Source: Ipomoea triloba
Taxonomy: Eukaryota > Streptophyta > Magnoliopsida > Solanales > Convolvulaceae
Assembly: GCF_003576645.1 (NCBI RefSeq)
Contig: NC_044923.1
Coordinates: 4,036,481 to 4,100,480, forward strand
Reading direction: 5' to 3'
DNA length: 64,000 nt
This document shows positions 4,700-45,668 of the stretch, in pieces. The notes beneath the pieces were generated by a model. The model made no database searches. It saw nothing but the letters and a program-made list of their open reading frames with translations, and was not told the origin of the DNA. The first letter of the stretch is position 1, and every line of letters begins with the position of its first letter. A program made the translations under genes and the position numbers.

Positions 4700-4845
4700 G
4701 GGTTCTTTTTCCGGTCAAGAGGCAATTGATATTGGTTTTCCAAATAGTGACCAACCTGAGAAGGTTACAAAAAGAGGAAAAGAGACTTTGGGAAAGGCTT
4801 GTTCTCCTGTGCAAAAAGCCTACCCTTTAGGCTTTTTCTATTTTT
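4700..4845 (+). repeat. Left terminal inverted repeat of the MULE
   Basis: Pairs with 20450-20595 in inverse orientation, degenerate but colinear. The inner part contains AGGCTTGTTC (4796-4805) and a perfect inverted repeat at 4813-4837 (arm AAAAAGCCTA, 5-bp loop, arm TAGGCTTTTT). Confidence 0.65.
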
Positions 4846-4874
4846 GGTTTTTTTTTTTTTTTTAAAACAGGGCC

Positions 4875-4918
4875 ATTAAATACGGTAGGTGTGAACCTGT
4901 ACACCTACCGTATTTAAT
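4875..4918. repeat. 18-bp inverted repeat with 8-nt loop
   Basis: The arm ATTAAATACGGTAGGTGT is followed after GAACCTGT by its exact reverse complement. It lies just inside the left MULE end, within a segment whose lead-in ('tttttct atttttg... taaaacagggccatta') is repeated at about 4958-5000. Confidence 0.8.
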
Positions 4919-5039
4919 TAGTCAACAAATACTTTTAATACTCCAATTTTAATTCCTTTTCTATTTTTGTTTTTTGTTTTTTGTAAAACAGGGCCATTAA
5001 TACTCCAACCAATTTCTGTAGATGTGAACTTGTGCAGCA

Positions 5040-5345
5040 ACCATAATTCCTTTTAAATTACTCCAATCACTCTCCTCTCTCTACCCCACTTCAAACCCCA
5101 CTTCCTCATCCAAATCTCCAATCTTCCCATTCTCTTCACCCACCACTTTCAAACCTTTTTTTTTTTCTACAAATTTTGTGGTCCTTCTCAAGTCCCTTTC
5201 ATTCTTTTTGCTTGTGGTCCCAACCAGCAGCAATAGCAGATCGAGAAGGAACAAGCCTCACAAATTCGGCCAGCAGATCAGTTCAATTGCCATTGCTGCT
5301 TGGAATGTGATTTTTGGCTTTTTCCTTGTGGTAACACCCTATACT
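5040..5345 (+). other. Possible captured host exon fragment inside the MULE
   Basis: A C/T-rich leader like a plant 5' UTR precedes an open frame (ATG-like start near 5178) encoding FGQQISSIAIAAWNVIFGF and reaching a possible splice donor (CTTGTG|GTAACA, near 5332). Base composition differs from the surrounding AT-rich DNA. MULEs often carry pieces of host genes. I do not recognise the protein. Confidence 0.3.
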
Positions 5346-6239
5346 CACCATTTCTTTCAATGATGCCTGGCATTTTAATTAGAGTGCATGTAGATTTGAT
5401 AGTTGTTTCCATGTGATTACTTTTAGTCAGATATCCCTGCTTTTGCCATAGATGATGGAAGGGTGTGAGCTTGCTACGTCTTAATATCTCACTGCTTTTT
5501 GACTGTTTGAGAATGAAAATTCAGAGTTGAATCAAATCATAGTAGGTGTTTGAGCTCTTGTGTATTCTTTTTTTGTTTCATTGTACAATAGCGAGTTGTC
5601 CAGTTGTTGTCTTGTTCTTTTGGACCCTATATTTCCTGTTAGAATTCCAAGTGGAGTCTCCAACCACTAGCTGCCATCCACTTTGAATGACTTCTTTGAT
5701 ATGTATGTTGACTGACTGCCAGCCATAGATTTTCTTCAAATCCCATTTATATTTTGCAAGTCCATAGTCTATTATATTAATTTTAATCACTTATTGGATT
5801 GTCATTTGTTAACCATATAATGTATAAATAACATATTTATTAAAAAAACACATCTTAGGACTCATTTTATTGTTAGTTCTAATTGAAAAATAAAAAAACT
5901 GTAAAAGCAATATAATTTCTCACTTAGTTCTAATTGAAAAAAAAAACTGAAAAAGCAATATAATTTCTCACTGACTTTAACATATAACTATACTTTTTAC
6001 TGTATATAAAATTGAAACCAAAACAAAATTTTTATTTATGCATTTAAAAATATATTTACTAATATACCTCACTTTTTACACATTTACCCTACTAAACTAC
6101 TATTATACTTGAGGAAATTAATTTTAATTGATTATAAATAGTAAGTTATTATTTTTTCTTTTAGTAATTTATTTTTTTAGCATTAGTCAAATAAATAAAA
6201 TAAATTTAGCTATTTGACTAAAAAAATTCGGTTATATTT

Positions 6240-6376
6240 AACCGACCGAAAACTGTCGGTTTCGGTTATTTCGGTTATGAATGTTGATCGGTCGGTTATG
6301 AAGGTTCAGTTAAATTTTCGATTATTTCGGTTATTAACCGAAAACCGACCGAAACCGACCGATGCTCACCCCTACT
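6240..6376. mobile_element. hAT-like element end (CCGACCGAAACCGACC repeats)
   Basis: Repeated CGGTTTTCGGTTA/CCGAAAACCG words end at 'gatgctcacccctac', the reverse complement of the GTAGGGGTGAGC terminus common in plant hAT-type non-autonomous elements. I could not place the other end or an 8-bp target duplication. It is nested in the MULE. Confidence 0.5.
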
Positions 6377-6642
6377 GATATGTATCACCTGCAGCAAACT
6401 AGACCCAAATCTTTTATCACTGCACAAAGCACGCCGATCGAAACTATATTGTCTTGTAATTATGCAGTAAAGTCGTGATTATCATGCAAACATTGTATGC
6501 TACGACACTCTATTTAACTATTTTCTTATTAATTGGATAATGTTGCAAATAGTAATAAAGTGAGATTATTAAAAACACAGAATTTTGTATACTTCTCACT
6601 AATGCAGCATGTAACAAGCGTATTTTAATAATGTTAAAAATA

Positions 6643-6695
6643 AATAAGGCTTATTCATTGAACAAGCCTATTACTTATGCTTGTTCAAGAATATT
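6643..6695. promoter_or_regulatory. AAGCCTA/TAGGCTT motif cluster upstream of the PMD gene
   Basis: Three motif copies in 50 bp (AAGGCTTATTC, GAACAAGCCTA, TGCTTGTTC), 150-200 bp before the PMD start codon. Same word family as in the MULE ends and the other internal promoter gaps. Confidence 0.5.
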
Positions 6696-6844
6696 TTGTG
6701 TTTTAAATTAACAAGATTGATTTCTAATTTATTAATTAGAATAAATGAATTAAATTTAGAATCACATGATTGATTTGAATGTATTTTTGAAGTAGAATAT
6801 TTTATTTCAAATAGTAATGAATATTTTTATTATCTTTTACAGTT

Positions 6845-9404
6845 ATGGCTGCACGAAGGCAATTACATCCGGGCCCGATGGATCCGTCGGTGCTAACATT
6901 TCAGCATAGGCATCGGTCTATGTCCATATGGATGGATCCAGATTTTAATGCACGTATTAAACCGTGCCGATACGATGGCCAAACAGTGGTGCCCAGTGAT
7001 GAAAGAATGATTAATTACTTGCGTATTGCTGGGTTCTACGGGGTATCTCATCTTAGAGATATAAGGTTGGACCATTCATTAATCGCCGCTTTGATTGAGC
7101 GGTGGCGGCCTGAGGTTCACGCGTTTCACCTACCGTTTGGGGAGGTAGGTATAACACTTCAAGATGTTGAAGTGTTACTTGGGCTTAAGGTGGACGGCCT
7201 AGCTATTACTGGACGTGTCAAGCGTTCTACCGAACAATGGAAGGAATTGTGTCGTCGTTTGTTGGGATTCACTCCCCTTGATGGATTTTTGAAGCAGTCG
7301 AAAATTAATTCGACTGCAATAGGACCCGTTCCAGTACTAACCGCGGATAGCACAGATCATGAGGTGCAAATTGCTACGCGGATACAATTGATGCATTTGT
7401 TAGGAGGACTTCTTTTCCCCGAATCAACAAACATGGCGGTAAATTTGGCCTTGTTGCCTTTCATTGAGGATTTTGAGGTGTGTGGCCAGTACAGTTGGGG
7501 ATCAGCTGTGTTAGCCTATCTTTATAGGGGGTTGTACAAAGGAGCTGACCACCATACTTCAGTTGTCGGTGGTTGTATGCTACTGCTGCAACTTTGGGCA
7601 TGGGAGAGGCTCCCTATACTTAGACCAGAGGGCGTTATAGCAGAATTAAATATTCGTGATTTGCCAGTTGGTGCCAGGTAAGTTGTAATAGTTAATTTTT
7701 AAAAACGTATTGAATTCACTTTGTGTTGAAGTAGTCATGAATTGTTGTTGCAAATGTAGGTGGGTAGGTGCACATTTTTGGGGGAATGTGCCTCATCACG
7801 TGATTCGGGCATATCGCGACCAATTGGATCGCGTTAACCAACAAATGGTACGTTTGTTTAATGTTGGCGTTACTATGATCATTTATATAATCATATTTTG
7901 TGGTAATCATAACATTTTTTTAACGTCTTTCGCAGTTTGTCTTCCAGCCTTACAATGAATTATTTCCTCAATTGCCTGACTATTGCACGGCCGGCCAAGC
8001 GATTTGGACAGCTCGAGTGCCTTTGATCTATTTTTATATCATTGAGCACTACTATCCTGACCGATTCTACAGGCAATTCAGTGGTTTCCAAGATGTCCCG
8101 ATTGAAGTCGTGTACAGTGAGGAATTGCACGCATTTGACGGGCGATCTGGCAATTTTGATTGGGCTGACAAGCACGCTCAGCCTTTGTACTGTTGGAGAC
8201 AACGGGGAGGTTTCATCCACCCAATGCAAGTGATGAACAATCCCGTTACAAGTGATGCATACCGTGTATGGTATCATATCCATGGCATTACAAGTGATGC
8301 ATACCGTGTATGGTATCATATCCATGGCAAGCTTTTCATTGGCAACCCTGAACACCGACAAGATCAGGGTTATGTCCAATGTGGTGCCTCGTTAAATGAA
8401 GCAGTTAGTATGTTCAATAACGGATAACGTTTTTTTTTAAATGGGGTGATTAATAGTTTATGATCATAAATATGTTATGTGAATAAATGTTGTATATTTG
8501 ATGCAGATGCACTACATTCGTGAAATGCATATAAGTACCGGAGAGGCTCGCGAGGATAGAGCGCGAGCTCTTGATCTCGTTCGGGAACTTCACATTAGCT
8601 CGCGCGAACATTTAGAGCGTGCTGGCTATGCTTACTATGCGGACGTCCCCCCACATTTATTCAATAACGCACCGGTATACGAGCCAAGGGTGCAACATCG
8701 CCGTCCAGATTTACGACGACATCGAGAGAACATGCGGGGGCAACCTGGGCGCGGTGGTAGGCGTATGCGCGCGGTCAACCAGGCTTTGCAAGCCGAGGCA
8801 GAACAACAAAGACATGACGCCGAGGACGACGATGACGATGATGAGGATGGGAATGCGCTAGCACTTGTGCCTATTCAATACCAGGGCGGTGACCAAAACT
8901 ATGACTCACAGCGTTTTACTATGTCAGGCCCCAGCTCAAGCTTTTGTGGTCCCTATTCACAGGCCGACTTTGGTGGTTTGTCTCAGTATACTCCAGCTAG
9001 TCAAGTGTATGATCCCTCACAGCCGGGGTCATCCCACCATAATGCACCATCGAATATAATCCCGCAATTTGGAGGTCAAAATCGGCCGGCATACAACACC
9101 TCACCTTGGTCCCATCCAGTTGGAGATTTTATTGTAGAAGACTCTTCTAGTCAACCCGGTATTGGGAGCCAAAACATCGGTATGCCGAGCACTGCTGACT
9201 TCCTTGATATACAGGAGCCACAGGAGGTGCAGGAGCCACAAGAACCACAGAGACGACAATCAACCCGAATCAGATTTCCTACAGTTTGTGGAACGCACCC
9301 GCGTCAAAGGTATATTTAATTTGTTAAGTAAATTTATTATTAAATAATTATAGTTGTTAAAATATTAATTGATTATATTCTTTCATGTTTGTAGGTACCT
9401 GTAA
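6845..9404 (+). CDS. Plant mobile domain (PMD/MAIN-like) protein, five exons
   Basis: Exons: 6845-7677, 7760-7847, 7936-8403, 8507-9309, 9395-9404; phases fit throughout and the sum is 734 codons (733 aa). The N-terminal two thirds is a PMD: LRIAGFYGVSHL, then LIAALIERWRPEVHAFHLP, GEVGITLQDVEVLLGLKVDG and LLGGLLFPESTN, all hallmarks of MAIN/MAIL1 and of transposon-borne PMD proteins. The C-terminal part is low complexity, with an acidic run (D/E, about 8822-8850) and Q/P-rich stretches. The domain is thought to help heterochromatin silencing in host MAIN proteins; in transposons its role is unknown. The exon 3 donor (GCA|GTTAGT) is weak; without splicing the frame stops at 8427. Exon 3 contains an in-frame 42-bp tandem duplication. 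The last intron only swaps RYI-stop for RYL-stop. Confidence 0.8.
8248..8331 (+). repeat. 42-bp tandem duplication in PMD exon 3
   Basis: The 14 residues starting TSDAYRVWYHIHG occur twice in tandem; DNA units start at 8248 and 8290. See the finding on exact 42-bp duplications. Confidence 0.95.
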
Positions 9405-9624
9405 TTGACACGGATGTGCATGGTTTATATTTTGACATTTTGTTACTTCATGTTGTCATTAGATAATATTTTGACATGTTATCACCACTGTTTTCCTCTC
9501 CAACACGAAGTAGACTAATCCGACTAGCTATGAATATTAATTCTATCTAGCTATGCTGTGTTTTCACTTTTTGCATTTCCGCATTTGAATCGGCGATGTG
9601 TCTGTCTTTTACAGGTTTTCATGA

Positions 9625-9670
<46 letters not shown>

Positions 9671-9781
9671 CTAATACTAATACTAATAATAATACTAATA
9701 CTAATACTAATAATAATAATAATAATAATTAAAAAAAACTAATATAAAACAACTTCTTAATTCAATTGAAATAGAGCCTTA
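9405..9781. repeat. Short intergenic gap with interrupted (AAT)n microsatellite
   Basis: Between the convergent PMD and B3-like genes. 9626-9732 is an AAT/ACT trinucleotide array. Nothing else recognised. Confidence 0.9.
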
Positions 9782-10960
9782 TTACACACCAACATCAACA
9801 TTTGCATAGTCTTCAATATTATAGACGTACAAATCTTCCGTCATTATTTCCATCCCGCACATGTTGAATGCTATTAGGTGAACCTCCCCAACTTCATAAT
9901 TGAAGAACACCAAGCTCTTGATAACACGGCGACGGCTCCAAAGCATACGCATGAGGAATGCATACTGTTCAGCGTAATTGATTAACTCTCCGACATTTAT
10001 GAACGTAAGGGTGAAAGTGCCGTGTCTAAGAGCAACACTATCACCCTCACTCTCGGTCCAAAAAATGAAGTTACACAGAGTTGATTGGTCGTCACAGAAT
10101 TCATCAAAACCAATCATTAACGTCCTACAACCTGACAGTGTGGTCAATCCAACATCAAAATTTATGCTGGACCTGGCTGGTACATAGATAGCTTCCCCAT
10201 CCTCCGCGGGTTCGCGCTCAACACCATCGCCATGCACCTCAGGCAGAACTAGTTGTTGTTTATTTCGTATGACAAAAAAATGAAATTTAAAATAACCAAC
10301 GTGTCTAAATATTAAAACATCATCCTCTTGAATTCCATGCGCGAGATAGAATTCCTCAAGTCCGTGATAAAAATCTAAGTTTTCAACAGGTAACTCCCAC
10401 GGATGTGCATGTCCATGAAATAGTTGGGCAGTACGGTTGACATGTTGAAGGAGATGTATGTGCATGCAGTTGGGAAATTGTAACATCCAGGGCGACCACA
10501 CATGCCCTAAAAACCAAGTAATCGTCTGAACAGAGGGATGGTGAGGATGGCCGACGGTCCCAGTATAGAAACAAGCTAAATGAAAAACAATTAATACAAT
10601 TAAATCAAAAAAAATGTTGCGATTATAAATGTAAAATATATATGTAATTGAATGCGTACGATGGCTGCCAAGTCTCCCAAAGTCGAAATTGATAGACCCT
10701 CGAAGGAAGCTGTCGAGGAATTGTTCAGCACGACGTTTTGTGTTGATGTTCGCAGGAAAGGTTAGTTGGAATCCCATCACTTTCATGAGAACTAACCACA
10801 TTTGAGCAATGGCTAAGGTGTATTTTGACTGTGACCGTTGTCTACTCATTTCAAAAATGCAGTAGCGACGGCCATGCAGTGTGTGAAGGAAATATGAAAT
10901 AGTATCACCTTCTCTGTTGTGTTGAACCTCCTCATAACTAAAGCGTGTAAACATATCCAT
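9782..10960 (-). CDS. B3-like domain protein 1 of the MULE, two exons
   Basis: Exons (minus strand): 10960-10660 and 10575-9782, joined by an 84-nt intron (GTACGC...TTTAG) that is itself open in frame; 364 aa. I start at MDMFTRFSYEEV because it aligns with MDIFVEFSKVSC of the gene at 15482. Both share the blocks YFLHTLHGRR/YFAHTISGRK, TITWF/TIVWF and CMHIHLLQHV/CMYRHLMQHF. The middle (PWELPVENLDFYHGLEEF, AHGIQEDDVLIFRHVGYFKF) follows the plant B3 DNA-binding pattern W.V...F..GW.EF, then GD.L.FR..G...F. A second, weaker B3-like repeat follows near the C-terminus (FTLTFINVGELINYAEQY). B3 domains bind DNA in the major groove. I infer a DNA-binding accessory protein; the domain call rests on pattern reading, not on a profile search. 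Confidence 0.6.
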   Translation of the reverse strand: MDMFTRFSYEEVQHNREGDTISYFLHTLHGRRYCIFEMSRQRSQSKYTLAIAQMWLVLMKVMGFQLTFPANINTKRRAEQFLDSFLRGSINFDFGRLGSHRTHSITYIFYIYNRNIFFDLIVLIVFHLACFYTGTVGHPHHPSVQTITWFLGHVWSPWMLQFPNCMHIHLLQHVNRTAQLFHGHAHPWELPVENLDFYHGLEEFYLAHGIQEDDVLIFRHVGYFKFHFFVIRNKQQLVLPEVHGDGVEREPAEDGEAIYVPARSSINFDVGLTTLSGCRTLMIGFDEFCDDQSTLCNFIFWTESEGDSVALRHGTFTLTFINVGELINYAEQYAFLMRMLWSRRRVIKSLVFFNYEVGEVHLIAFNMCGMEIMTEDLYVYNIEDYANVDVGV

Positions 10961-11060
10961 TTTGTGGATGGGAATAAGGTTTTGTAAGCACAAATAATCT
11001 GTAGAATTTTTTCGAACTTATCAAGCTGTGTATTATCATCAACATTCGTCGAATCATATA

Positions 11061-11182
11061 TAGGAGCCAGAATTGTAAACAGTGAACAAGCGTGACTGTT
11101 AGTAGGAGCCAGAATTGTAAACAGTGAACAAGCGTGACTGTTAGGCTTGTTCGACGAACAAGCCTAACTCTTAGGCTTGTTC
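11061..11182. promoter_or_regulatory. Motif cluster upstream of B3-like gene 1, with a 42-bp duplication
   Basis: Units starting at 11061 and 11103 are identical 42-mers (taggagccagaattgtaaac...) each holding GAACAAGCGTGACTGTTAG. Next come TTAGGCTTGTTCG and GAACAAGCCTAA/TTAGGCTTGTTC to 11182. It lies 100-220 bp upstream of the start codon at 10960. Confidence 0.6.
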
Positions 11183-11375
11183 AACGATTCATGCCTATTC
11201 ATTGGTAGTCAAGTCCGCACGTTCTTTTTTTTTTATTTCTGTTTTTTTAAACATATTAGTGTTATTAGTATTGAATCGAACAAAAAAAATTAAAAATACG
11301 AATGGTAAATAAGAAATTAATTTTTTTTAATACAAAGCCACAACATTGATTTTATTTAATGCGTACATGATAGCT

Positions 11376-11781
11376 TTATTTTCGAAACATTTGCTTAAAT
11401 TCTTCCATTATCGCATCGATTTTCATTGCATGTTCATGAATTTCGTGCGATAACTCATTCTGAACACTTGATAAAATTTCCATCGCAGCCGATGAATTTT
11501 GCGAAGTTGAAGTCGAAGCCGCATTGGTGCCAGCGAATGATGCAGATGAATATTGTTGCCTTTCGGTGAAGGTATTAAAAGCAGAAATAGCTTCCTCTTT
11601 AGATGTGTAAGACTTATATAAATTGTCACTAAATCGATGAACTTGTGCCTTTGCGTCATCCCAATTGTCATATACTCCAGGACAACGACCAACAAATACA
11701 ACATATGTTTCTTTCCCTATAATAAAAATTAGTTTTAATCAAACATTAAACAAAAAAAAATTAAAATGAAATTATTACCAT
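11376..11781 (-). pseudogene. Hybrid-binding-domain gene, first (frameshifted) copy
   Basis: Same gene as 14555-15045 (start-codon exon at 11779-11781, main exon ending with the stop at 11376-11378). One A is missing just after the splice acceptor (GGAAAGAAACAT against GGAAAGAAAACAT), shifting the frame. The rest translates cleanly in the proper frame as YVVFVGRCPGVYDNW and onward, and keeps the canonical Pro of the GRxPGVY motif (Leu in the other copy). Probably a sequence error in a duplicated contig end rather than a real second gene. Confidence 0.6.
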
Positions 11782-11960
11782 TAATGTAGACCGACTTGCT
11801 TGAAACTTGTTTTGAATGGCTGAGCTTGAGAAATCAAGGAGTTTGTTTGGACTGACAATTCGCAAATAAAACACAGGTATATATAGGCTTTAAGATTATT
11901 ATTATTGTTATTATTAGTCTGAACAATAAAAAGTGAATTGGCCCGGTCGGTGTGAGGAAA

Positions 11961-12483
11961 CTATGAAAAAGCCTAACTATCAAGCTTTTTCACTGAAAAA
12001 GCCTAAAACTTAGGCTTTTTCTGAGTTTTGAAGTGACAATTCCCTCACTAGTGAAATTGAAAGTAATTCATCTGAACAATAGGACTTCAAAGGACGTTTG
12101 AAATTACAATTCTTGTGTTGTGGATTTGAGTTAACTATGAAAAAGCCTAACTATCAAGCTTTTTCACTGAAAAAAGCCTAAAACTTAGGCTTTTTCTGAG
12201 TTTTGAAGTGACAATTCCCTCACAAGTGAAATTGAAAGTAATTCATCTGAACAATATGACTTCAAAGGACGTTTGAAATTACAATTCTTGTGTTGTGGAT
12301 TTGAGTTAACTATGAAAAAGCCTAACTATCAAGCTTTTTCACTGAAAAAGCCTAAAACTTAGGCTTTTTCTGAGTTTTGAAGTGACAATTCCCTCACTAG
12401 TGAAATTGAAAGTAATTCATCTGAACAATAGGACATGACTTCAAAGCAATATTGAAAAGACAATTTCCTCACCCGTGAAATTG
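11961..12483. repeat. Triplicated 174-bp unit carrying the AAGCCTAA palindrome
   Basis: Units begin (CTATGAAAAAGCC) at 11961, 12135 and 12310. Each contains GAAAAAGCCTAACTATC, then AAGCTTTTTC, then a near-perfect palindrome (arms GAAAAAGCCTA / TAGGCTTTTTC). The array lies in the gap between the divergent hybrid-binding-domain and B3-like-2 genes. The second copy of the region (15228 onward) has only one unit. Confidence 0.9.
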
Positions 12484-12566
12484 AAATTTTCCCGCACGCT
12501 ATTTAAATTGCACGAATAGCCGAATTATCATTTCAATATTACATTCATTCAGTAACGTAAACACTC

Positions 12567-13979
12567 ATGGATATATTTGTAGAGTTTTCGAAGGTCTCAT
12601 GTCTTAACCGACAACGTTATACCACAACAAACGTTATTTCGCACATACAATAAGCGGAAGGAAATTATTGTATGCAATTGTAGAGCGTACTTCGCGAGAT
12701 GAATATATTTGTTTTGCGCCTCCATCATGGGTAAAATATATGAACATGTTAGGACTAAATGTGTCGGATCCAATGACTTTTCAAAATTTTCAAGATGCTG
12801 AGCGATATACGTATGAAACCCTACAGCACAGCTTACAAACACTGCTCCTTCCATCGCGTAAGTAATTTTATATTTTTTAATTTTATATTTTGGGTATTAT
12901 TTTAAATGTGAATTTGTAACTATATTTTTCTATGGTGTAGCTTGTAATGATCAAAAACATTTGCCAGATATTACTAGATGCACTATTGTATGGTTTTCTA
13001 TTACAATTACATCGCGTGTGACAATGGTAATTTTATGAATTTTACTTCAATCTTTTATTTTTTTATAATGCAACTGGGTTTCTAACTATATATATTTTAG
13101 AAAATTCCACAATGCATGTATCGACAATCTAATGCAGCACTTCACAACAACTGCCATTTTGAAACATGGTCCGTGGTTCGCAATAGAAGTTTCAATTGAA
13201 AACATGCACTTCACTACAGGAGTTGCTGAATTCATTACTGCGAATTCGTTGAACCGTGCAGACAGGGTGCTTTTCAGACATACGGGTTTCCTTACTTTTG
13301 AAACCTTCTTCTATGACGTATTGGCACGTTAATAACGTACCCCTGCCGTCGTATTACAAACCAACTTCCTTCTCGCCCCATACCACATCAAACAGGTAAC
13401 TACATACTATAATGTGTCGCCTCTTTGTAACAAATTTATTGTTACATATTATACAACAATTAATTACTTTTTTTATGCATTAGACCGAATACGTGTTAAG
13501 GCAAAGTCTGCTCTGCCCCAAGCATATTCACTTGATGTGCAAAGATGTCGTTCATTCTATACTGATTTCTCAAGACCTCTTGCGGTGAGGAACAATATTC
13601 AATTTTAATATTTTACCTCTACATCGATCATCTAACAATTATTTACTTATTAATTACCTTCTTACGTTTGTCTAGATGGATAAATTATCTAAATTCTTAG
13701 AGATTCAGATGCGTTTTCTGATCAGACGCTGAAAATACTAGTTGGAACTCGAAAGCTGGAGGTCTACTTTGACACAACTTTTTTCGCAGAACAGTGGGAG
13801 GAAATAACAACGCATTTTAACATTAATACAACAGATGATGTTGTTTTATTCACAATGGAGGATAATGTTGTACGACTCATGGTTCTTGGTCAATGTCAAG
13901 TTGAAAATATTTATCCTTGGTCGGTTAAATATTTCATTCAGGACATGTGTATGGTGAACTTAACTCATTAAATATATGA
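12567..13979 (+). pseudogene. B3-like gene 2, first copy with several frameshifts
   Basis: Collinear with 15482-16898, which is intact. Relative to it this copy lacks single bases near 12617, 13322, 13694 and 13943 and has one extra base near 13122, so no continuous protein can be read. Differences are mostly one-base indels, consistent with sequencing error. Confidence 0.65.
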
Positions 13980-14142
13980 TTTGAAATATGAACGAATCGT
14001 TCGACGTGCACTATTGTGTTATTGTTGGATTTTTTTCCAAAGTGGTTTTGTTATTGTTGGATAAGTATGACTATTCATAACACTAACATTAAAAAAACAA
14101 AAAAAAAAAAAAAAACAAAAGTTGGGAAAAATAATGAAAATA

Positions 14143-14450
14143 AGCCTAAAGGTTAGACTTGGGTAGGGTTTAGGGTTTTTCAGTACAAACTGAAAAAGCC
14201 TAACATTTTGGCTTTTTCAGTACTTTGAACAAGCCTAACATTTTGGCTTTTTCCCCCAATGAACAAGCACCGTAACTTTTGTTTATATATATCATGCAAC
14301 ACCAACTCATAATGTCTCCAAAACAAAGAACGTACTCCGAATTTTGTAATTCTTCCTTGTAAGTCGTCCCCTACCACAATCTTGTCACACAATATGGCCA
14401 ATGTTTCAGATAACAATTGTCAATTGTTCATTTTTTGGGGTGGTGAAATT
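14143..14450 (+). other. Truncated MURA 5' end with its motif-rich promoter, cut by the gap
   Basis: 14143-14270 repeats the promoter seen at 17062-17190 (AAGCCTAA words plus a telo-box-like TAGGGTTTAGGG). The start codon at 14394 opens the first 19 codons of MURA (MANVSDNNCQLFIFWGG) before the N run. Confidence 0.8.
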
Positions 14451-14475
14451 NNNNNNNNNNNNNNNNNNNNNNNNN
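14451..14475. other. Assembly gap, 25 N
   Basis: Run of 25 N flanked by overlapping sequence. Confidence 1.
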
Positions 14476-14554
14476 TACGAATGGTAAATAAGAAATTAAT
14501 TTTTTTTAATACAAAGCCACAACATTGATTTTATTTAATGCGTACATGATAGCT

Positions 14555-15045
14555 TTATTTTCGAAACATTTGCTTAAATTCTTCCATTATCGCATCGATT
14601 TTCATTGCATGTTCATGAATTTCGTGCGATAACTCATTCTGAACACCTGATAAAATTTCCATCGCAGCCGATGAATTTTGCGAAGTTGAAGTCGAAGCCG
14701 CATTGGTGCCAGCGAATGATGCAGATGAATATTGTTGCCTTTCGTTGGTGCCAGCGAATGATGCAGATGAATATTGTTGCCTTTCGGTGAAGGTATTAAA
14801 AGCAGAAATAGCTTCCTCTTTAGATGTGTAAGACTTATATAAATTGTCACTAAATCGATGAACTTGTGCCTTTGCGTCATCCCAATTGTCATATACTCCA
14901 TGAACTTGTGCCTTTGCGTCATCCCAATTGTCATATACTCCAAGACAACGACCAACAAATACAACATATGTTTTCTTTCCCTATAATAAAAATTAGTTTT
15001 AATCAAACATTAAACAAAAAAAAATTAAAATGAAATTATTACCAT
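14555..15045 (-). CDS. Small protein with RNase H1-type hybrid-binding (viroplasmin) domain
   Basis: Minus strand: an exon holding only the ATG (15043-15045), an intron (GTAATAAT...ATTATAG), then 14980-14555, giving 142 aa. The start MGKKTYVVFVGRCLGVYDNW, then QVHRFSDNLYKSYTSKEEA, matches the roughly 45-residue domain at the N-terminus of eukaryotic RNase H1 (Pfam PF01693), which binds RNA/DNA hybrids. There is no RNase H catalytic domain. The remainder is Ser/Thr/Ala-rich with a helical C-terminus (HEIHEHAMKIDAIMEEFKQM). Two in-frame tandem duplications of 42 bp (14703-14786 and 14859-14942) lengthen it by 28 residues relative to the first copy, and the second duplicates part of the domain. 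It is divergently arranged with B3-like gene 2 across a motif-bearing gap. Role in the element unknown. Confidence 0.65.
14703..14942. repeat. Two exact 42-bp tandem duplications
   Basis: Units at 14703/14745 (TTGGTGCCAGCG...) and 14859/14901 (TGAACTTGTGCC...). Neither is duplicated in the parallel copy at 11376-11781. Confidence 0.95.
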
Positions 15046-15227
15046 TAATGTAGACCGACTTGCTTGAAACTTGTTTTGAATGGCTGAGCTTGAGAAATCA
15101 AGGAGTTTGTTTGGACTGACAATTCGCAAATAAAACACAGGTATATATAGGCTTTAAGATTATTATTATTGTTATTATTAGTCTGAACAATAAAAAGTGA
15201 ATTGGCCCGGTCGGTGTGAGGAAACTA

Positions 15228-15286
15228 TGAAAAAGCCTAACTATCAAGCTTTTTCACTGAAAAAGCCTAAAACTTAGGCTTTTTCT
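15228..15286. promoter_or_regulatory. Single AAGCCTAA palindrome unit in the divergent gap
   Basis: Same 57-bp core as at 11965-12021, here present once, between the hybrid-binding-domain gene (minus) and B3-like gene 2 (plus). Confidence 0.55.
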
Positions 15287-15481
15287 GAGTTTTGAAGTGA
15301 CAATTCCCTCACTAGTGAAATTGAAAGTAATTCATCTGAACAATAGGACATGACTTCAAAGCAATATTGAAAAGACAATTTCCTCACCCGTGAAATTGAA
15401 ATTTTCCCGCACGCTATTTAAATTGCACGAATAGCCGAATTATCATTTCAATATTACATTCATTCAGTAACGTAAACACTC

Positions 15482-16898
15482 ATGGATATATTTGTAGAGT
15501 TTTCGAAGGTCTCATGTCTTAACCGACAACGTTATAACCACAACAAACGTTATTTCGCACATACAATAAGCGGAAGGAAATTATTGTATGCAATTGTAGA
15601 GCGTACTTCGCGAGATGAATATATTTGTTTTGCGCCTCCATCATGGGTAAAATATATGAACATGTTAGGACTAAATGTGTCGGATCCAATGACTTTTCAA
15701 AATTTTCAAGATGCTGAGCGATATACGTATGAAACCCTACAGCACGGCTTACAAACACTGCTCCTTCCATCGCGTAAGTAATTTTATATTTTTTAATTTT
15801 ATATTTTGGGTATTATTTTAAATGTGAATTTGTAACTATATTTTTCTATGGTGTAGCTTGTAATGATCAAAAACATTTGCCAGATATTACTAGATGCACT
15901 ATTGTATGGTTTTCTATTACAATTACATCGCGTGTGACAATGGTAATTTTATGAATTTTACTTCAATCTTTTATTTTTTTATAATGCAACTGGGTTTCTA
16001 ACTATATATATTTTAGAAAATTCCACAATGCATGTATCGACATCTAATGCAGCACTTCACAACAACTGCCATTTTGAAACATGGTCCATGGTTCGCAATA
16101 GAAGTTTCAATTGAAAACATGCACTTCACTACAGGAGTTGCTGAATTCATTACTGCGAATTCGTTGAACCGTGCAGACAGGGTGCTTTTCAGACATACGG
16201 GTTTCCTTACTTTTGAAACCTTCTTCTATGACGTATTTGGCACGTTAATAACGTACCCCTGCCGTCGTATTACAAACCAACTTCCTTCTCGCCCATACCC
16301 ACATCAAACAGGTAACTACATACTATAATGTGTCGCCTCTTTGTAACAAATTTATTGTTACATATTACTACAACAATTAATTACTTTTTTTATGCATTAG
16401 ACCGAATACGTGTTAAGGCAAAGTCTGCTCTGCCCCAAGCATATTCACTTGATGTGCAAAGATGTCGTTCATTCTATACTGATTTCTCAAGACCTCTTGC
16501 GGTGAGGAACAATATTCAATTTTAATATTTTACCTCTACATCGATCATCTAACAATTATTTACTTATTAATTACCTTCTTACGTTTGTCTAGATGGATAA
16601 ATTATCTAAATTTCTTAGAGATTCAGATGCGTTTTCTGATCAGACGCTGAAAATACTAGTTGGAACTCGAAAGCTGGAGGTCTACTTTGACACAACTTTT
16701 TTCGCAGAACAGTGGGAGGAAATAACAACGCATTTTAACATTAATACAACAGATGATGTTGTTTTATTCACAATGGAGGATAATGTTGTACGACTCATGG
16801 TTCTTGGTCAATGTCAAGTTGAAAATATTTATCCTTGGTCGGTTAAATATTTCATTCAGGACAATGTGTATGGTGAACTTAACTCATTAAATATATGA
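15482..16898 (+). CDS. B3-like domain protein 2 of the MULE, five exons
   Basis: Exons 15482-15773, 15857-15942, 16017-16311, 16401-16501, 16593-16898; all phases fit and the sum is 360 codons (359 aa). Residues 1-97 (MDIFVEFSKVSC...) are homologous to the start of B3-like gene 1. Exons 2-3 encode a B3-like fold: IVWFSITITSRVTMKIP, CMYRHLMQHF, WFAIEVSIENMHFTTGVAEF, ANSLNRADRVLFRHTGF. Exon 5 holds a second such repeat: LEVYFDTTFFAEQWEEI, NINTTDDVVLF, VVRLMVLG. The order of a hydrophobic strand, W/F-V, an F..GW.EF-like turn, then DxVxF fits plant B3 domains. A nuclear DNA-binding accessory factor is my inference. It precedes MURA on the same strand by about 0.4 kb. The first copy at 12567-13979 is frameshifted. 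Confidence 0.6.
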
Positions 16899-17061
16899 TT
16901 TGAAATATGAACGAATCGTTCGACGTGCACTATTGTGTTATTGTTGGATTTTTTTCCAAAGTGGTTTTGTTATTGTTGGATAAGTATGACTATTCATAAC
17001 ACTAACATTAAAAAAACAAAAAAAAAAACAAAAAACAAAAAGTTGGGAAAAATAATGAAAA

Positions 17062-17190
17062 TAAGCCTAAAGGTTAGACTTGGGTAGGGTTTAGGGTTTT
17101 TCAGTACAAACTGAAAAAGCCTAACATTTTGGCTTTTTCAGTACTTTGAACAAGCCTAACATTTTGGCTTTTTCCCCCAATGAACAAGCA
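17062..17190 (+). promoter_or_regulatory. Motif-rich promoter region of MURA
   Basis: Contains AAGCCTAAAGGTTAGACTT, a telo-box-like TAGGGTTTAGGG, then two blocks of AAGCCTAACATTTTGGCTTT preceded by TGAAAA or TGAAC, and ends 126 bp before the transposase start codon. Short tandem words of this kind in MULE promoters can be targets of element-encoded binding proteins. Confidence 0.5.
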
Positions 17191-17315
17191 CTCGTAACTT
17201 TTGTTTATATATATCATGCAACACCAACTCATAATGTCTCCAAAACAAAGAACGTACTCCGAATTTTGTAATTCTTCCTTGTAAGTCGTCCCCTACCACA
17301 ATCTTGTCACACAAT

Positions 17316-19907
17316 ATGGCCAATGTTTCAGATAACAATTGTCAATTGTTCATTTTTTGGGGTGGTGAAATTTGTCAATATTCAACACCACCTCAACTTT
17401 ACTACACAATACCGCCCCAGTTGGTCATTACTATTCATGTCAATTTCGGATTACCTTATGTAGCCAATCTGATCCGGAATGCAATGGGAGTAAGTTCGGA
17501 TTGCATATTACAAATTACTGCCCGGCTCCTAATCGATAGCTCAATGGGTGTCATGCAAATGGCATATCGTATAACCAATGATGCAGAGTGGGAATACTAT
17601 GTATTCCAATCAAAAAATCTTGGTGAGCTACACGTTTATGTTACGCAAGAGCTTCACAACCCTGCACCTTCGCAAAACACATTCACTGCTTTGTTAGCCG
17701 AGAATGAATCATCCTCTACAGATTTTGGTGCATACGAACCGTATGTCGAATTCTTTCGCCATGACAATCCCTTGGAGAGCCTAACCATTCATACAGAACA
17801 ACTTCCTGGTCAGACATTCTTACCAGAAAGCTCCGAGCAAATCGATTCATCAGAGAGTAGCTCATCTGAAGAGCTAGTTTCAGGCACCTCAGACAGTTTA
17901 GATGAAGGAACTAAAAATCACGACAACATGAATCAATTTTCATTCCCGTTTGATTCATTTCAACAAGTCAGACAGGAGGATGCACAACCAAGCCGGGGAA
18001 AGAGGGTGGCTGATTCAGAAATCCCGTTTTTTCATGCCCCCGTATCATTTAATACCGGGTTTGAAGAAGAAGACGACTACACAATGCCATCTTACGATGC
18101 TGAATCTGGGGTGTTTCAGATCGGAATGGTTTTCTCCGACTTCGAGGAATTACATGAAGCTGTTTCCATTTTTCACATCCGCGAAGGGAAAAAATTCAAA
18201 TCTTCCTACAAAAAAGGCACCTCTTGGCGTGCGGAGTGTGTGAACTTCATGTCGAAAGAAAACCCTTGTTATTGGATGTTGTCTGCAAGTAAACTGAGAG
18301 GGCCCACAGGGGAATGGCAGATCAAGAAATTGACTAATACCCATGTATGCAGACATGATTTCAATGACGGTGGGGTCGACAAAATGTGCAGAAGCAAACT
18401 TATCGCCGCTCTTGTCAGGCATAAGATCCGTGACGATCCGCACTATAAAGTTAAACACATACAAAGTGATGTGAAAAATGAGTACGGAATAGACGTGACG
18501 TATCGAAAGGCTTGGTACGCTCGTCAAAAATGCATTGAACAAGAGTACGGCAAATTTGGAGATTCCTACAACGAGCTGCCCCTTTTCTTGCAGTCAGTGC
18601 AAACAACAAACCCAGGCACGGTGGTAGAAATTGAATACACGGAGTCCAACCAAGGGGCACCGTACTGCGATTTCTTGTATGCTTTTTGGGCTTTTAAGCC
18701 CGCCATAGATGGATTCCGATTTTGCTTCCCGGTTATTTCAGTGGATGGAACACATCTATATGGAAAATACAAAGGCCACCTTCTTTTAGCGGTCGGGATG
18801 AACGCTAATCGAGAAATCTTTCCACTCGCGTATTCAATTGTTGACTCAGAAAATGCAGCTAGCTGGACTTGGTTCATGACACTACTCGCCACACATGTCT
18901 TCCCCGATCATGAGTCGGTGTGCATCATTTCGGATAGGCATGCTGGGATCGATGCGGCGTTCAGGGATTTGTCTGCATTACATCCCCCACGAGTCCAACG
19001 TCGATATTGTCTTAGACACATCCGGAGTAATGTCATGACCCGAAATAGGAATAGGAGACTGCGAGCATTAATCTGGGAAGCTGGTACTGCAACCACACGC
19101 CGAGATTTTGGGAACAAAATGGAGAGAATAAGAGCTGAATGGCCTGCAGCATACAATTATCTAGCAAGTATTGACGCTGAAAAATGGGCGTTGTCTCACG
19201 ATGGTGGTCACCGATATGGCATTATGACAACCAATTCATCTGAATCGTTTAACAATTCTCTTAAGGGTTGTCGTATGTTGCCAGTGGCTGCGCTTGCAAG
19301 ACTCACTTTCCATAAAATAAGGGTAATGTTCGCCGATAGGAGAACAGCTGGGCAAAGGATGCGGGACGCAGGGTTGTGTTGGCCCAAGAAAGTTTTTGAC
19401 GAGTTGGCACAACGAGAGCAACAGGCATCCAATGCAACCATTGAGAGGTATAATGACTCAACGGGGTTGTACGGGGTTGCTCTTGAAAGACGGCATGCCA
19501 CACAACGTCCCCTGCGCTTTCATAAAGTTTGTTTGAACAGCTCTAGCTGCGATTGTGGAAAGTGGAACGCAAACACCTCCTTACCTTGTGCACACATCAT
19601 TGCAGCATGCCACTTTAAAAAAGTTACGTATGACTCGTTTGTGCCAAATGTTTTCTCCATGGAACATTATATGGCGAGTTATGCAGCTGATTTCTTTCCA
19701 CCGTGCAATGAAATTCAATGGAGGAGTGAGCGCATTCTACTTCCACCGTCTTCCGCTAGACGAAATTCACGTCCAGGCCAGCGACGAACTCGTCGCTTTC
19801 AAAATGAAATGGACTTTGGGAATACGACAGCAACGCGACGATGTAATTATTGTCGGGCACGAACTCATGTTTCAAACCAGTGCCCAGCGTTAAATTATCA
19901 CTCGTAG
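17316..19907 (+). CDS. mudrA-like: MURA-type transposase of a Mutator-like element
   Basis: A single uninterrupted frame of 863 aa from the ATG at 17316 (MANVSDNNCQLF). In order: an N-terminal PB1-like region (about 35-108); an acidic/serine linker; a MuDR DNA-binding domain (about 268-346, with Cys/His ligands around AECVNF, ENPCYW and NTHVC); the MULE DDE domain with D477 (SVDGTHLYGKYKG), D540 (ISDRHAG) and E643 (TNSSESFNN); a SWIM zinc finger CDCGKWNANTSLPCAH (about 745-760); and a C-terminal CCHC zinc knuckle CNYCRARTHVSNQC (about 843-856). It catalyses cut-and-paste transposition by cleaving at the terminal inverted repeats. All catalytic and zinc residues are present, so the protein looks functional. 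A TTG four codons upstream is not a likely start. Confidence 0.95.
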   Translation: MANVSDNNCQLFIFWGGEICQYSTPPQLYYTIPPQLVITIHVNFGLPYVANLIRNAMGVSSDCILQITARLLIDSSMGVMQMAYRITNDAEWEYYVFQSKNLGELHVYVTQELHNPAPSQNTFTALLAENESSSTDFGAYEPYVEFFRHDNPLESLTIHTEQLPGQTFLPESSEQIDSSESSSSEELVSGTSDSLDEGTKNHDNMNQFSFPFDSFQQVRQEDAQPSRGKRVADSEIPFFHAPVSFNTGFEEEDDYTMPSYDAESGVFQIGMVFSDFEELHEAVSIFHIREGKKFKSSYKKGTSWRAECVNFMSKENPCYWMLSASKLRGPTGEWQIKKLTNTHVCRHDFNDGGVDKMCRSKLIAALVRHKIRDDPHYKVKHIQSDVKNEYGIDVTYRKAWYARQKCIEQEYGKFGDSYNELPLFLQSVQTTNPGTVVEIEYTESNQGAPYCDFLYAFWAFKPAIDGFRFCFPVISVDGTHLYGKYKGHLLLAVGMNANREIFPLAYSIVDSENAASWTWFMTLLATHVFPDHESVCIISDRHAGIDAAFRDLSALHPPRVQRRYCLRHIRSNVMTRNRNRRLRALIWEAGTATTRRDFGNKMERIRAEWPAAYNYLASIDAEKWALSHDGGHRYGIMTTNSSESFNNSLKGCRMLPVAALARLTFHKIRVMFADRRTAGQRMRDAGLCWPKKVFDELAQREQQASNATIERYNDSTGLYGVALERRHATQRPLRFHKVCLNSSSCDCGKWNANTSLPCAHIIAACHFKKVTYDSFVPNVFSMEHYMASYAADFFPPCNEIQWRSERILLPPSSARRNSRPGQRRTRRFQNEMDFGNTTATRRCNYCRARTHVSNQCPALNYHS

Positions 19908-20449
19908 GGTTCATTTCTTATTTACTTGCAAACATTGTATCACAAATTTGCAGTTTGTATTCAAAAAATCACTCATTAGTTTTTCTTTTAAAATTTGTTC
20001 TCTTCAATATTTACTAGATGACAGAACTACACTAAATATTTGAACCATATTTATTTTTATCAGTACCAAAAATTAGATATTCATACTAACCAAACAAAAT
20101 TTATTCTAGTGAAATTAACTACATAAATATTTGATAATAAATTTTAACGACTTTATATATTTACCTTATTATATGTCAATTTATACTTTTTATTCATTAA
20201 CAAATCATAAATATATTTATTAACTATAGACAATTATTACTAATCATTAATATAATTAATACAATCATAAATAATTAGTTTAATCATTACCTAATGAATA
20301 CTTTAAGAAATCAAATCATAATTTTTTTTACTAATTATACACAATTATTTTTAAACATTACAATCATAAATAAATTTTGTAAACACCTATACACATGTGT
20401 ATTTTGTTCATTGTATTCTGTCGTATTTTGTTTTTTTTTTAATAACAAA
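19908..20449. other. AT-rich 3' region of the MULE
   Basis: Downstream of MURA; no gene or clear repeat seen. Confidence 0.5.
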
Positions 20450-20595
20450 AAAAAAGCCTAATGTTTAGGCTTGTTTTACAGAAAGAAGACTTTCAAACAA
20501 GCCTAAGCCTTAGTATCTTTTCCCTAGTTGGAATCCCACCACAATCCGCTCCTATTTGGGAAACCATATCAAATTTGCTCTCCGTTCAGTTAATG
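20450..20595 (-). repeat. Right terminal inverted repeat of the MULE
   Basis: Begins with AAAAAGCCTAATGTTTAGG and CAAACAAGCCTAAGCC, then AGTATCTTTTCC and CCATATCAAATTTGCTCTCC, the inverse of the words at the left end in the same order and spacing. Confidence 0.65.
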
Positions 20596-21591
20596 ATTCT
20601 GTTGAAAGTAGGTAACAACAACGTTTTGCATGTGCTGCACCAAAACAAAGAAGATAAAGGGGGCCGTAATTAGTCTTCAATTAAACTATTAAGATCCATC
20701 CACTTAGTGATTCTTATTGTATTTGTAGTTAACGTGTTCTGTACATGTAAACAAATTACACTTTGAGAGGTTGTCACACTGTCATTTGTGAGACTCGATC
20801 CGTGATTTCTTCTCTCAGTTGAATTGCCCATGCGGGCTCTTCCCGAACACCCTACCTATATTCTTGCTTGTACTATTGATTTTTTTTTACTTTTCTTTTA
20901 ACAGTAAATTACGGGATATGTAGTTTCAGCTAGCCTATATGTCCCCAAATGCTTGTATACCAGTACCTACAACAAAGTCAAATTCAGACTTTTTTTTAAA
21001 ATCCTTTTGCACCCTACAATTACTAGCTAAGTAAAGCTTCTCAACTCAATTTTAATTTGTTGACTAGTTGAGTTGTACCCATAAGCAATAGTATCTTAAC
21101 ATATTGGTATGAAAAAGTGTGTTTTTTGAATAGTTTGGCCTAGATGGACAACCTCTCTAATAAGTAATAACTCAAGAGGTTTTAAATTTAATTAACTCGG
21201 AGATAAAATTTATGATTGATTTTTAAAATGTCAATATAGTTAAGCTCAAAACTTAACTTTCGCTTTAACAAAAATAGTTGATACTTAGCTTGATAATAAT
21301 AGAATGAACCAAAACTCATACACACTACCATAAATTTGAAAGTTAAAAATCATGACGACAACAATAAGATCACCAATAATAACAATGAGAACAACAACAA
21401 TAACAACACGAATTTTTGTGACAAAAATGTGGAATCGTCCACCACTCCACCCCAGATGTCCCCACATCTCGACTCGTCATTTTATGGAAGAGTAAATCAT
21501 GATAACTTATTGATCTGTTGTAATAAGTTTCACCACTCCAACCAATTGAGCTGTCTGGCCATGCGAACAACAACAACAAGAATTCTATCCT
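20596..21591. other. Intergenic DNA between the MULE and a CYP81 gene
   Basis: Right MULE flank (ATTCTGTTGAAAGTA at 20596), then AT-rich sequence. 21541-21591 is the 3' flank of the CYP81 gene and recurs beside the pseudogene at 48887-48933. Open frames over 21336-21854 are shadows of the P450 exon. Confidence 0.5.
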
Positions 21592-23966
21592 TTAAAGTTG
21601 GACGAGAAATTGATGACAATTCTTGCGCAAAGTGCACACTACTTCCACTCGCTCAGCCCTTTGCAAAGCTTCTCGAGAGAGACGAGCAGCAGACATTTTG
21701 TCCTCACCAATATTTTCCCACTCATAACATTGAACAAATGCCCCCAATGCCAACGAGACAGTCCTTAATCCCATATTATTCCCGGGACAAGCTCTTCTCC
21801 CCATCCCAAACGGAACAAACTTATAGTTCAACCCTTCTCCCTCCCCAATCATAGCCTCGAATCTCTCTGGCTTGAACTCTCTCGGCTCTTCCCACACCTT
21901 GGGATCACGATGCATAGCCCAAGTATTCACCACTAGTATTGTGTGTTTAGGAACATCGAAACCTGCGACTACACAGTCTTGTAATGAATAATGGGGTATC
22001 AAAAGTGGAACGGGAGGGTATAGCCTTAGAGTTTCATTAACAATGCATCTTAGGTAGGGGAGTTTTGAGAGATCCGACTCATTTAACAAACGTTCATGTC
22101 CTACGTTGTTGTCGATCTCATTTCTTAACTTGCCTAACACCTCTGGTTGAGATAAAAGAAGCGACATTGCCCACTCGATGGTTGCTAATGATGTCTCTGT
22201 TCCTGCCACAAACATAGTCTGCACAAATTTGTTCTAATTCCATTAGTCCAAAGATTTATTTTTCCCAAAATTTTATAATCTTAATGCAAATTGTTTAGAA
22301 TGTGCATGGAGATAACTTATTTCCAATTTTAGACAATGACTTTTAAAGCTATTAAATTTAGCCTTGAATCATTTTCAGTTCTAATCAACCTGTGTGAATG
22401 GTTAACAGTGAGAGTGAAATTAGGGCGGTTAGAATAAGGAAATTCGGACTTTGTTGTTCGGGTGTGAGAAACAATTAGCATAACGGTCATAACTTTCTAA
22501 TTTTACTCTCAATGTTAATGATTTACACAGGAAAAACTAATAGGTAATTACAATTGAAAATGATTTGATACTTAAATCACTAAATTGGTAATTTTAAAAT
22601 GAGCTAATTACTTAAATGATTCCTTGACTATAGCAAAATTACTTATTTAGTCATTGGCTATTTTTTTCACCAATTAAGTCTCTAAACTTTAAAATCTTAA
22701 CCAATTTGGTCTTTTGTTTGTTTTGCCGTAGACATCCTTTAATTCCGGGCCAAATTAATAATTTAGCTATAATCAAGAGATCATTTCAGTAATTAACTTT
22801 TCGGAGAAAATGATGCATGTGATGATCGAAATGGTCCCTAGCTTGACTATAGCAAAATTACAAATTTAATCTCAAGTTAACAAAGGTTTATCGGCAAAAC
22901 AAACAGATGACTAAATTAGTTAAAAATTTTAAAGTTGAGAGATTTAATTGGTAAAAAAAAGTAGTCAATGACTAAATCTATAATGAAATCTATAATTTCG
23001 CTATAGTAAATAAATGACGGGTTAGATGAAAATGACGACAGGCAAGAAGTAGTTTACCAGTATGATACTCATAACAACATCATCTGTGTAAAATTCAGGC
23101 TCCGATTTTTGCAGCCGCAACAGAGTTCCAATCACTGTTGTTTTCTCATCGCCGTCTGAATCCGAAAATCCGACATTTTTCCGGCGAAATTCGTCAAGAA
23201 GGCGGCTGACCAGCTCGATTCTCCTGTCACTAACTGCCGCCATCTTCTTCTCCAGGCCTCCGTACCCAAACCACCTCAAAACCGGGAAGAAATCACAGGC
23301 ATTCATGCCCAGAATACTGGCGAAGAAAAGCTCTCGAAGCCCATCAATTATCTCTCTCCCTTTCTCCCCTCCCATCTCTTCTTCTTCCACAAACCGTTCC
23401 CCGCTTATGATTCTCATCATGGCATTGAAAGTGAACGCGCCGGCCAGAGAGCTGAAATCAACGGCTGAGATTCTTCCGATTTTGGTCCGTCTGAACAGTG
23501 ATCGGATCACCGTCCGAATCTCGTCCTCCCTGATAATTGAAGATCTCTGGAGGCTGGCCGCCGATAACAGCTCGACGGCGGCGAGGCGGCGTTGGGTTCT
23601 CCAGAGATCGCCGTACGGGGCCCACACTAAGGCTTTGTAGTTGAAGGAGAAGTTGTCGCCGGCCATTGTCCGGGGGCGGTTCGCGAAGACGATGTCGTTT
23701 TTGGTGAAGCATTGTTCGACGGCGGACGGGGAAGAGACGACGAGGAAAGAGCGGCGGCCGAACCGGAGGTGAAGAACCGGGCCGTGTTTGGCGGAGAGGG
23801 AGGCGAGGGATTGGTGAAGGGAGTTTTTGATGAGATAGAGGTGGCCGACGATTGGGAGAGCGAGTGGAGTCGGCGGTGGGTTTTTGCCGTGACCGGAAAA
23901 CAACATTCTTATTAGTACGATGAGGAGAACAGATAGTAACGGTGCAATGTAGTATTGGATCTCCAT
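21592..23966 (-). CDS. Cytochrome P450 CYP81-type, complete two-exon gene
   Basis: Minus strand: exon 1 23966-23058, exon 2 22218-21592, with an 839-nt phase-0 intron (ACTG|GTAAAC ... TGCAG|ACTATG). Product 511 aa. An ATG six codons upstream (23984) is possible, but MEIQYY matches the sister genes. Seen in order: membrane anchor (about 5-22), proline hinge [19 protein letters not shown]-helix [14 protein letters not shown]-helix oxygen-binding AGTETS (about 307-313), K-helix ETLR (365-368), PERF, and the heme loop [10 protein letters not shown] with Cys447. Everything needed for a working ER-bound monooxygenase is intact. Unlike the genes at 26876 and 42074 it has no intron after LFRR, so the first two exons are fused. 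Substrate unknown; CYP81s act in flavonoid, lignan and related specialised metabolism. Confidence 0.93.
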
Positions 23967-23984
23967 GTCGGAAATGACAATCAA

Positions 23985-44694: not shown

Positions 44695-44930
44695 GGAAGC
44701 GATTGTTATGTCATTGAGTCAACGTGGACTCAAGTCTATGTTCACAATTTTTAAACTCTATATTCAGAATTTTATAACTTTATATTTAAATTGTGAACAT
44801 TTAATATGTAAATTTGTGAATATTTATCATATAAAAATTATGAACATTCATTATATAAATTGTGAACATTTAATATATAAATTGTGTAATTTTTAATTTT
44901 ATATCTGGTCCATACCTCAGGTCCACAGCA
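44695..44930. mobile_element. Short element with a 22-bp minisatellite core (ATTGTGAACATTTAATATA)
   Basis: AT-rich repeats of about 22 bp, ending with 'ggtccatacctcaggtccac', which is the inverse of the GTGGACC-type end of the neighbouring element. Confidence 0.5.
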
Positions 44931-44980
44931 AATTTACCTCCATACTGGGTCCTTATTTGGTCCATTAATATTTGGCAAAT

Positions 44981-45588: not shown

Positions 45589-45668
45589 CAACCCTTAATT
45601 TTTGTACTAGTCCGTTCAATTAAATAAGTGGTAGTGAGAGGAACTTGTAGATGTGTTCCTGGGGTTTC

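Follow-up and report, generated by a model that had tools for sequence, protein, structure and literature searches.

Among the Mutator-like elements (MULEs) of plants, maize MuDR has two genes and long, near-perfect terminal inverted repeats (TIRs), and VANC serves as the textbook case of a transposon-encoded protein lifting silencing from its own family alone. VANDAL elements bear family-specific short motifs, dense in non-coding DNA and partly arranged as tandem repeats, with motif and family co-diverging (PMC5735166, PMC10398659); the VANDAL group displays 9-bp duplications, SWIM and CCHC, with PMD and/or DUF in half of its members (PMC6446971); and MULEs capture PMD (PMC5418596). Both motif-guided anti-silencing in MULEs and the common presence of PMD in them (PMC6446971, PMC5418596) are already known. 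Here we analyze a 64,000-nucleotide stretch of the Ipomoea triloba genome (contig NC_044923.1, positions 4,036,481 to 4,100,480; henceforth the window), which harbors a MULE with five genes, coding for the MURA transposase, a PMD protein, two related B3-like proteins (B3A and B3B) and a protein with a PF01693 domain, and with family-specific palindromes (dyads) before each gene and near both ends.

This placement of the palindromes suggests that proteins of the element use them to recognize and switch on their own kin only. Going by the sequences, we moderately favor a mechanism in which an element-encoded dimer, either a B3 protein or MURA itself, would bind the dyads of its own family; this binding would switch on all five genes together, probably against silencing, and would also mark the element ends, whereby each MULE family would act on its own copies alone. 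For the binder, a B3 protein is our tentative first choice and MURA a quite possible second one; another factor is improbable.

The element resembles maize MuDR in its Mutator transposase and in that its candidate TIRs, like those of MuDR, would hold regulatory sites. With the Arabidopsis VANDAL elements (VANDAL21/Hiun and VANDAL6) it shares its nature as a MULE, the combination of a transposase with accessory proteins, degenerate TIRs (candidate ones here), and family-specific short motifs concentrated in non-coding regions, which are palindromic in the present element. A dyad-bearing 175-bp unit repeated at 11959-12434 and a group of five dyads in a sister copy on C12 recall the tandem-repeat growth of VANC targets (PMC5735166). 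In contrast, VANC has DUF1985/DUF287 and its binding has been demonstrated, whereas here the binding sites are putative and DUF1985 appears only as a weak match in a PMD exon. The preliminary description of this locus had drawn the VANC analogy; it becomes more plausible through the family-specific motifs, while binding by the B3 proteins stays at the level of a candidate. PMD-bearing plant MULEs (MUDR, MUDRAVI2, MDR, MULE-Solanaceae_1 and others) have MURA with PMD, 9-10 bp duplications and SWIM in common with our element (PMC6446971) but, as described in the accessible parts of PMC6446971 and PMC5418596, differ from it in the B3 pair and the PF01693 gene. Auxin response factors, which act as B3 dimers on IR7/IR8 sites (inverted repeats; PMC10690724, PMC6797205, in their accessible parts), resemble the present case in the B3 fold, here a candidate one, and in a palindrome with 7-bp spacing; by contrast, the half-sites here are not TGTCNN, and Pfam reports no auxin response factor domain in B3A or B3B. 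In the literature searched, which covered few subscription journals and several articles in part (PMC5735166, PMC10398659, PMC6446971, PMC5418596, PMC13317346, PMC10690724, PMC6797205), no MULE that combines PF01693 with two B3-like genes is described. Within that scope, the five-gene set and the palindromic, family-specific candidate operators appear to be new; MULEs that bear PMD were already described (PMC6446971, PMC5418596).

A search of the genome (462 Mb, 17 contigs) recovered a second copy at about C15:13569446-13579943, which aligns with the window between 4700 and about 20599 and has unrelated sequence on both flanks, and further copies that end at the same left and right positions as the window element. 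Both ends were read in seven copies, the window copy and six others, and five of the seven have exact 9-10 bp target-site duplications (TCTTTCTCA at C15:13.57 Mb, GGCAATTTAC at C5:30.45 Mb, CAAATTTCT at C5:18.08, TTCTAAATA at C5:12.25 and TCATTTTTT at C15:14.34). The copy at C13:10.54 has one with 1 mismatch (AATAGTGCA/AATAATGCA), and none was found when sought around the window copy, a 9-bp duplication included. The ends are proved by being shared with other copies, the TIR by itself being insufficient, as its local score of 47 is marginal, the highest score among 600 random comparisons being 45. The boundaries first proposed (4700..20595) were hence right to within a few bases, and the degenerate TIRs proposed with them are candidate ones. 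The view of a self-contained MULE is likewise borne out by the boundaries, the target-site duplications, and the joint occurrence of the five genes in the C12 copy and a distant C7 relative. With a false duplication introduced by assembly removed, the element is about 12.7 kb long.

The dyads have the consensus GAAMAAGCCTAA-N3-TTAGGCTTKTTC, and the similarity between sites is confined to about 27 bp. The pattern AAGCCTAANNNTTAGGCTT, with up to 3 mismatches, occurs at 20 sites in the 64 kb, all inside the element, against 0.41 expected, and an unbiased count returned AAGCCTA as the top enriched 7-mer of the non-coding part. After dropping the false duplicate, 11 dyads remain, distributed over the left end (1), the right end (2), and the regions before PMD (1), B3A (2), PF01693/B3B (2) and MURA (3). 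All five start codons have a dyad upstream, and each dyad is either at a distance of 146-253 bp from a start codon or at most 150 bp away from an end. When the window element, C12, C14, L019, L020 and L024 were each shuffled 40 times, no dyad recurred three times.

The sister subfamily, represented by the gap-free copy at C12:13152501-13169000, carries 13 dyads at places matching those of the window, five of them between PF01693 and B3B. Their left arm is GAGCCTAA in 11 of the 13, seven of these being GAATGAGCCTAA; the sister dyad is the window version with two bases changed. This GAG-type dyad is also found at L005, L007, L015 and several left-end loci; the half-site change is thus common to many separate sites. 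Three families with MURA identities of 50-61% carry other recurring palindromes: the CTACCACGGCGG type on C14 (4 sites), ATGGAC-N7-GTCCAT on C7 (20 places when 2 mismatches are allowed, another N-gap duplication having doubled some of them), and ACGCAT-N7-ATGCGT at C15:18.84-18.86 Mb (17 places when 1 mismatch is allowed). In the last of these, the element at C15:18842626-18856159 has ACGCATTT-N3-AAATGCGT palindromes clustered in its outer parts, as well as others upstream of MURA. Across the families with recurrent palindromes the geometry is constant, with 6-bp half-sites 7 bp apart within longer arms, and the dyad type follows the MURA family, L016 and L027 having the C14 type and L023 the C7 type.

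The best-surviving alternative, though somewhat unlikely, is that the dyads are MURA binding sites, with those at the ends serving transposition and the internal ones autoregulation, and that the B3, PMD and PF01693 proteins are passengers or otherwise employed. It accords with the dyads near both ends of the window and C12 elements, with the tracking of the MURA family by the dyad type, and with the C15:18842626-18856159 element (L068, L019, L067), which has PMD, MURA and dyads, including the outer clusters, yet lacks any B3 or PF01693 relative detectable by tblastn; in light of this element the dyads seem not to need B3. However, a separate dyad cluster before each of five genes exceeds the needs of end recognition, and it would be odd for passengers that 5 of the 17 distant-family loci (L016, L017, L020, L021 and L023) have a B3B relative no more than 1.5 kb from their MURA match. 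That the palindromes instead act as RNA hairpins or DNA cruciforms, in termination, processing or as a small RNA source, is very improbable: arms of at least 12 nucleotides around a short center would be expected to fold, but among the 11 independent sites of the window, 8 have the left arm AAGCCTAA without deviation and 5 the right arm, and the arms are often mismatched, which suggests that sequence rather than pairing is kept, and the palindromes are placed upstream of start codons and near the ends.

The gene set itself recurs. The C12 copy has PMD (+), B3A (-), PF01693 (-), B3B (+) and MURA (+), in the order and orientation of the window, with identities by piece of 66-76% for PMD (45% for its last piece), 66-77% for B3A, 65% for PF01693, 67-91% for B3B and 81-91% for MURA; the C12 MURA is broken, its matches changing frame and containing stops. 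In the distant C7 family (MURA 61%), relatives of all five genes lie within 12.3 kb in a different order, and on C14 (MURA 59%), MURA, B3A, B3B and PF01693 are found in 10 kb. Gene models in other Ipomoea genomes fuse the PF01693 gene with B3A (P0132, P0133, P0142) or B3A with antisense PMD (P0131, P0136, P0140, P0143). Among the matches listed, the lists for MURA, PMD and PF01693 being lower bounds, 15 of 21 PF01693 clusters have a MURA match at most 25 kb away, with about 0.7% expected for each, and so have at least 26 of 48 PMD clusters (from 51 of 142 PMD matches). It is hence scarcely credible that the accessory genes are separate insertions nested by chance next to MURA, for although not every copy keeps the full set (about 7866-11962 is missing at C15:13.57 Mb, and the 5' part of PMD at C5:30.45 Mb), the conserved C12 arrangement with dyads beyond the outer genes, the fused gene models and the clustering of PF01693 with MURA all speak against it.

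Several further observations weigh against our proposal of an element-encoded dimer that binds the family's own dyads. No spacer-7 dyad recurred three times in 12 of the 14 distant-family loci scanned, which extend only 1.5 kb past the MURA match (L010, L016, L017, L018, L021, L023, L024, L025, L027, L028, L029 and L030); L019 and L020 have such dyads. Of the dyad-negative loci, L016, L017, L021 and L023 have a B3B relative, L021 sitting within the C14 stretch that does carry dyads. In the 4.8 kb of the four near-identical copies L010-L013, no recurring spacer-7 dyads and no B3 gene were seen, and the C15:18.85 Mb locus also has 16 even-centered dyads. The rest of the window contains recurrent palindromes too, none with spacer 7 and mostly attributable to tandem arrays, as well as strong odd-centered dyads at 12 per 43 kb. 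The assignment of B3A and B3B to the B3 fold is itself a candidate one: their PF02362 scores (15.6 and 15.0 bits) are below the cut-off of 30.1, the predicted B3 domain model is weak (mean predicted local distance difference test score, pLDDT, of 60), and a Foldseek search with this model gave no match at E <= 0.001, its top ranks being ribosomal proteins with a best E of 0.14. PF02362 matches at E <= 0.1 were obtained in 7 of 15 Ipomoea relatives (best 1.5e-5).

An extension of the proposed mechanism, which we regard as quite unlikely, is that these MULEs represent a second, independently evolved self-recognition (anti-silencing) system, in which element-borne B3-type dimers would read family-specific palindromes of fixed IR7 geometry located close to the ends and ahead of the genes, with protein specificity and operator co-diverging across five MULE families or subfamilies of a single genome. 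If B3-type proteins and palindromes do work in this way, such self-recognition would have more than one evolutionary origin. Across the families, elements and their candidate operators form a natural series of matched pairs in which the half-site varies and the geometry is kept, and even with MURA as the binder, the arrangement of candidate operators ahead of every gene and close to the two ends lends itself to direct tests.

Table 1. Features of the MULE and of the associated assembly faults (window coordinates)
Feature	Position	Strand	Remarks
Whole MULE, GGGT...GATTC	4700..20599	+	Ends common to copies at unrelated sites; target-site duplications elsewhere
Left degenerate TIR (candidate)	4700..4837	+	One dyad inside, at 4816-4834
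Dyad upstream of PMD	6664..6682		
PMD gene, spliced	6845..9319	+	Modelled exons 6845-7677, 7760-7847, 7936-8427; possible further exon 8508-9319
Exact 42-bp tandem duplication, PMD exon 3	8246..8329	+	Probably assembly artefact
B3A, 364 residues	9782..10960	-	Exons 10960-10661 and 10575-9782 (splice model)
Two dyads upstream of B3A	11130..11178		
False duplicate of 14476-17372	11297..14450		Duplicate ends flank N gap; holds partly frame-shifted PF01693 gene, B3B and MURA start
25-N assembly gap	14451..14475		
PF01693 gene (RNase H1 N-terminal / hybrid-binding type)	14555..15045	-	One intron; translation starts at 15045; this copy holds two 42-bp duplications
Two dyads between PF01693 gene and B3B, upstream of both	15233..15281		
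B3B, 359 residues	15482..16898	+	Modelled exons 15482-15773, 15857-15942, 16017-16311, 16401-16501, 16593-16898
Three dyads upstream of MURA	17063..17170		
MURA transposase, 863 residues	17316..19907	+	PF10551, PF00872, sub-threshold SWIM
Right degenerate TIR (candidate)	20451..20599	-	Dyads at 20454-20472 and 20499-20517 (3 mismatches)

Pfam scans covered 10 frames, nine of them in the element, and both spliced B3-like proteins. MURA, called intact in the preliminary description, is indeed a single open frame (17235-19907, with Met at 17316) matching PF10551 (E 4.4e-18, 66 bits, cut-off 27.6), and its best-scoring named relative, from I. nil, is 56% identical; the proteins closest to those of the window come from Ipomoea. 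We take D, D and E at residues 476, 539 and 641 onward to be its candidate catalytic residues, and MURA also shows CLRH, a stretch of SWIM type and a CCHC knuckle. The predicted presence of PMD is upheld by PF10536 matches in two exons (E 1.3e-49 and 9.5e-15), and every PMD piece, including 8508-9319, has relatives in the same order in C12. The PMD exon at 6845-7675 also shows the sub-threshold DUF1985 match (E 0.0023, 18.3 bits against a cut-off of 35.1), and a distant link between PMD and this VANC domain is possible in sequence terms; DUF1985 or DUF287 above the cut-off was seen in none of the scanned frames and spliced proteins. The common ancestry claimed for B3A and B3B is evident from 29% identity over 207 residues (E 4e-24), and their first introns fall at the same place of the alignment. 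A protein 93% identical to B3A occurs in Ipomoea batatas (P0121), and the end of B3A exon 1 is identical (100%) to P0124. The hybrid-binding-type protein was likewise correctly recognized, with a PF01693 match of E 4.1e-15 (56.2 bits against 21) measured on the false-duplicate frame 11379-11738. All four of the accessory genes named earlier (PMD, PF01693, B3A and B3B) were thus recovered, the apparent second copy of B3B and PF01693 being an assembly duplication.

The full-length fold of P0121 (pLDDT 34) was not used, profile searches of PDB sequences gave nothing useful, and a protein search with B3B returned 509 candidates, none at E <= 0.001, though the genome holds DNA copies. Scans of viral contigs found no relatives of MURA or P0121, as expected for a plant element, nor did one plasmid search with a B3B exon. 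Parts of the element's B3A turn up in the Ipomoea batatas proteins P0132, P0133, P0139, P0141 and P0142, whose annotations (resistance protein, ribonuclease HI, EXO70 or ABC transporter) may therefore mislead.

The analysis also identifies which apparent duplications in this assembly are false. The stretches 11297-14450 and 14476-17372 are one sequence present twice, on either side of the 25-N gap, and dovetail duplications of this kind accompany each of the three N runs in the window. The doubling is absent from the C15 copy and the gap-free C12 copy, each of which has one B3B. In the left copy single-base indels break the frames, and the right copy reads cleanly; the two are distinguished by 3 substitutions, two 42-bp duplications, a repeat difference of 349 bp, and about 12 single-base indels, many of which fall in homopolymers. 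The N-gap dovetail and the single state in C15 and C12 led us to reject a real tandem duplication, and there is therefore one B3B and one PF01693 gene; the repeat-number difference between the two copies could possibly be a real allelic one. At the other two runs, 1487 bp are duplicated at 100% beside the N at 34323 (32836-35817 being doubled by assembly) and 1546 bp at 99.9% beside that at 38181 (36635-39726 doubled). On C7:11785871-11788535 (L066), the PF01693 gene and dyads occur twice beside the N at L066:3516, probably as another gap duplication.

A second class of duplication has a period of 42 bp; the 64 kb contain 13 exact tandem cases of it, compared with one among the remaining periods in the range 20-299. 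They lie at 8246, 11061, 14703, 14858, 30563, 32632-32877 and 60939-61307, and four of the 13 fall between two frames of a predicted Nramp gene. The duplication at 8246-8329 adds 14 residues that are missing from alignments with the C12 and C5:30.45 Mb copies. Judging from these patterns, the exact 42-bp duplications are probably assembly artefacts, a call that is short of certain because two duplicated positions of the PF01693 gene are also duplicated in the C5:30.45 Mb copy.

A cluster of cytochrome P450 frames (PF00067) surrounds the element in the window, at 1-372, 21592-22233, 23022-24005 and 42074-42757, with similar frames between. PIF1-type helicase frames are situated just outside the C15:18842626-18856159 element. 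Arrays of a 22-bp repeat at 25864-26195 and 44735-45894 of the window are perhaps subterminal repeats of another DNA transposon.

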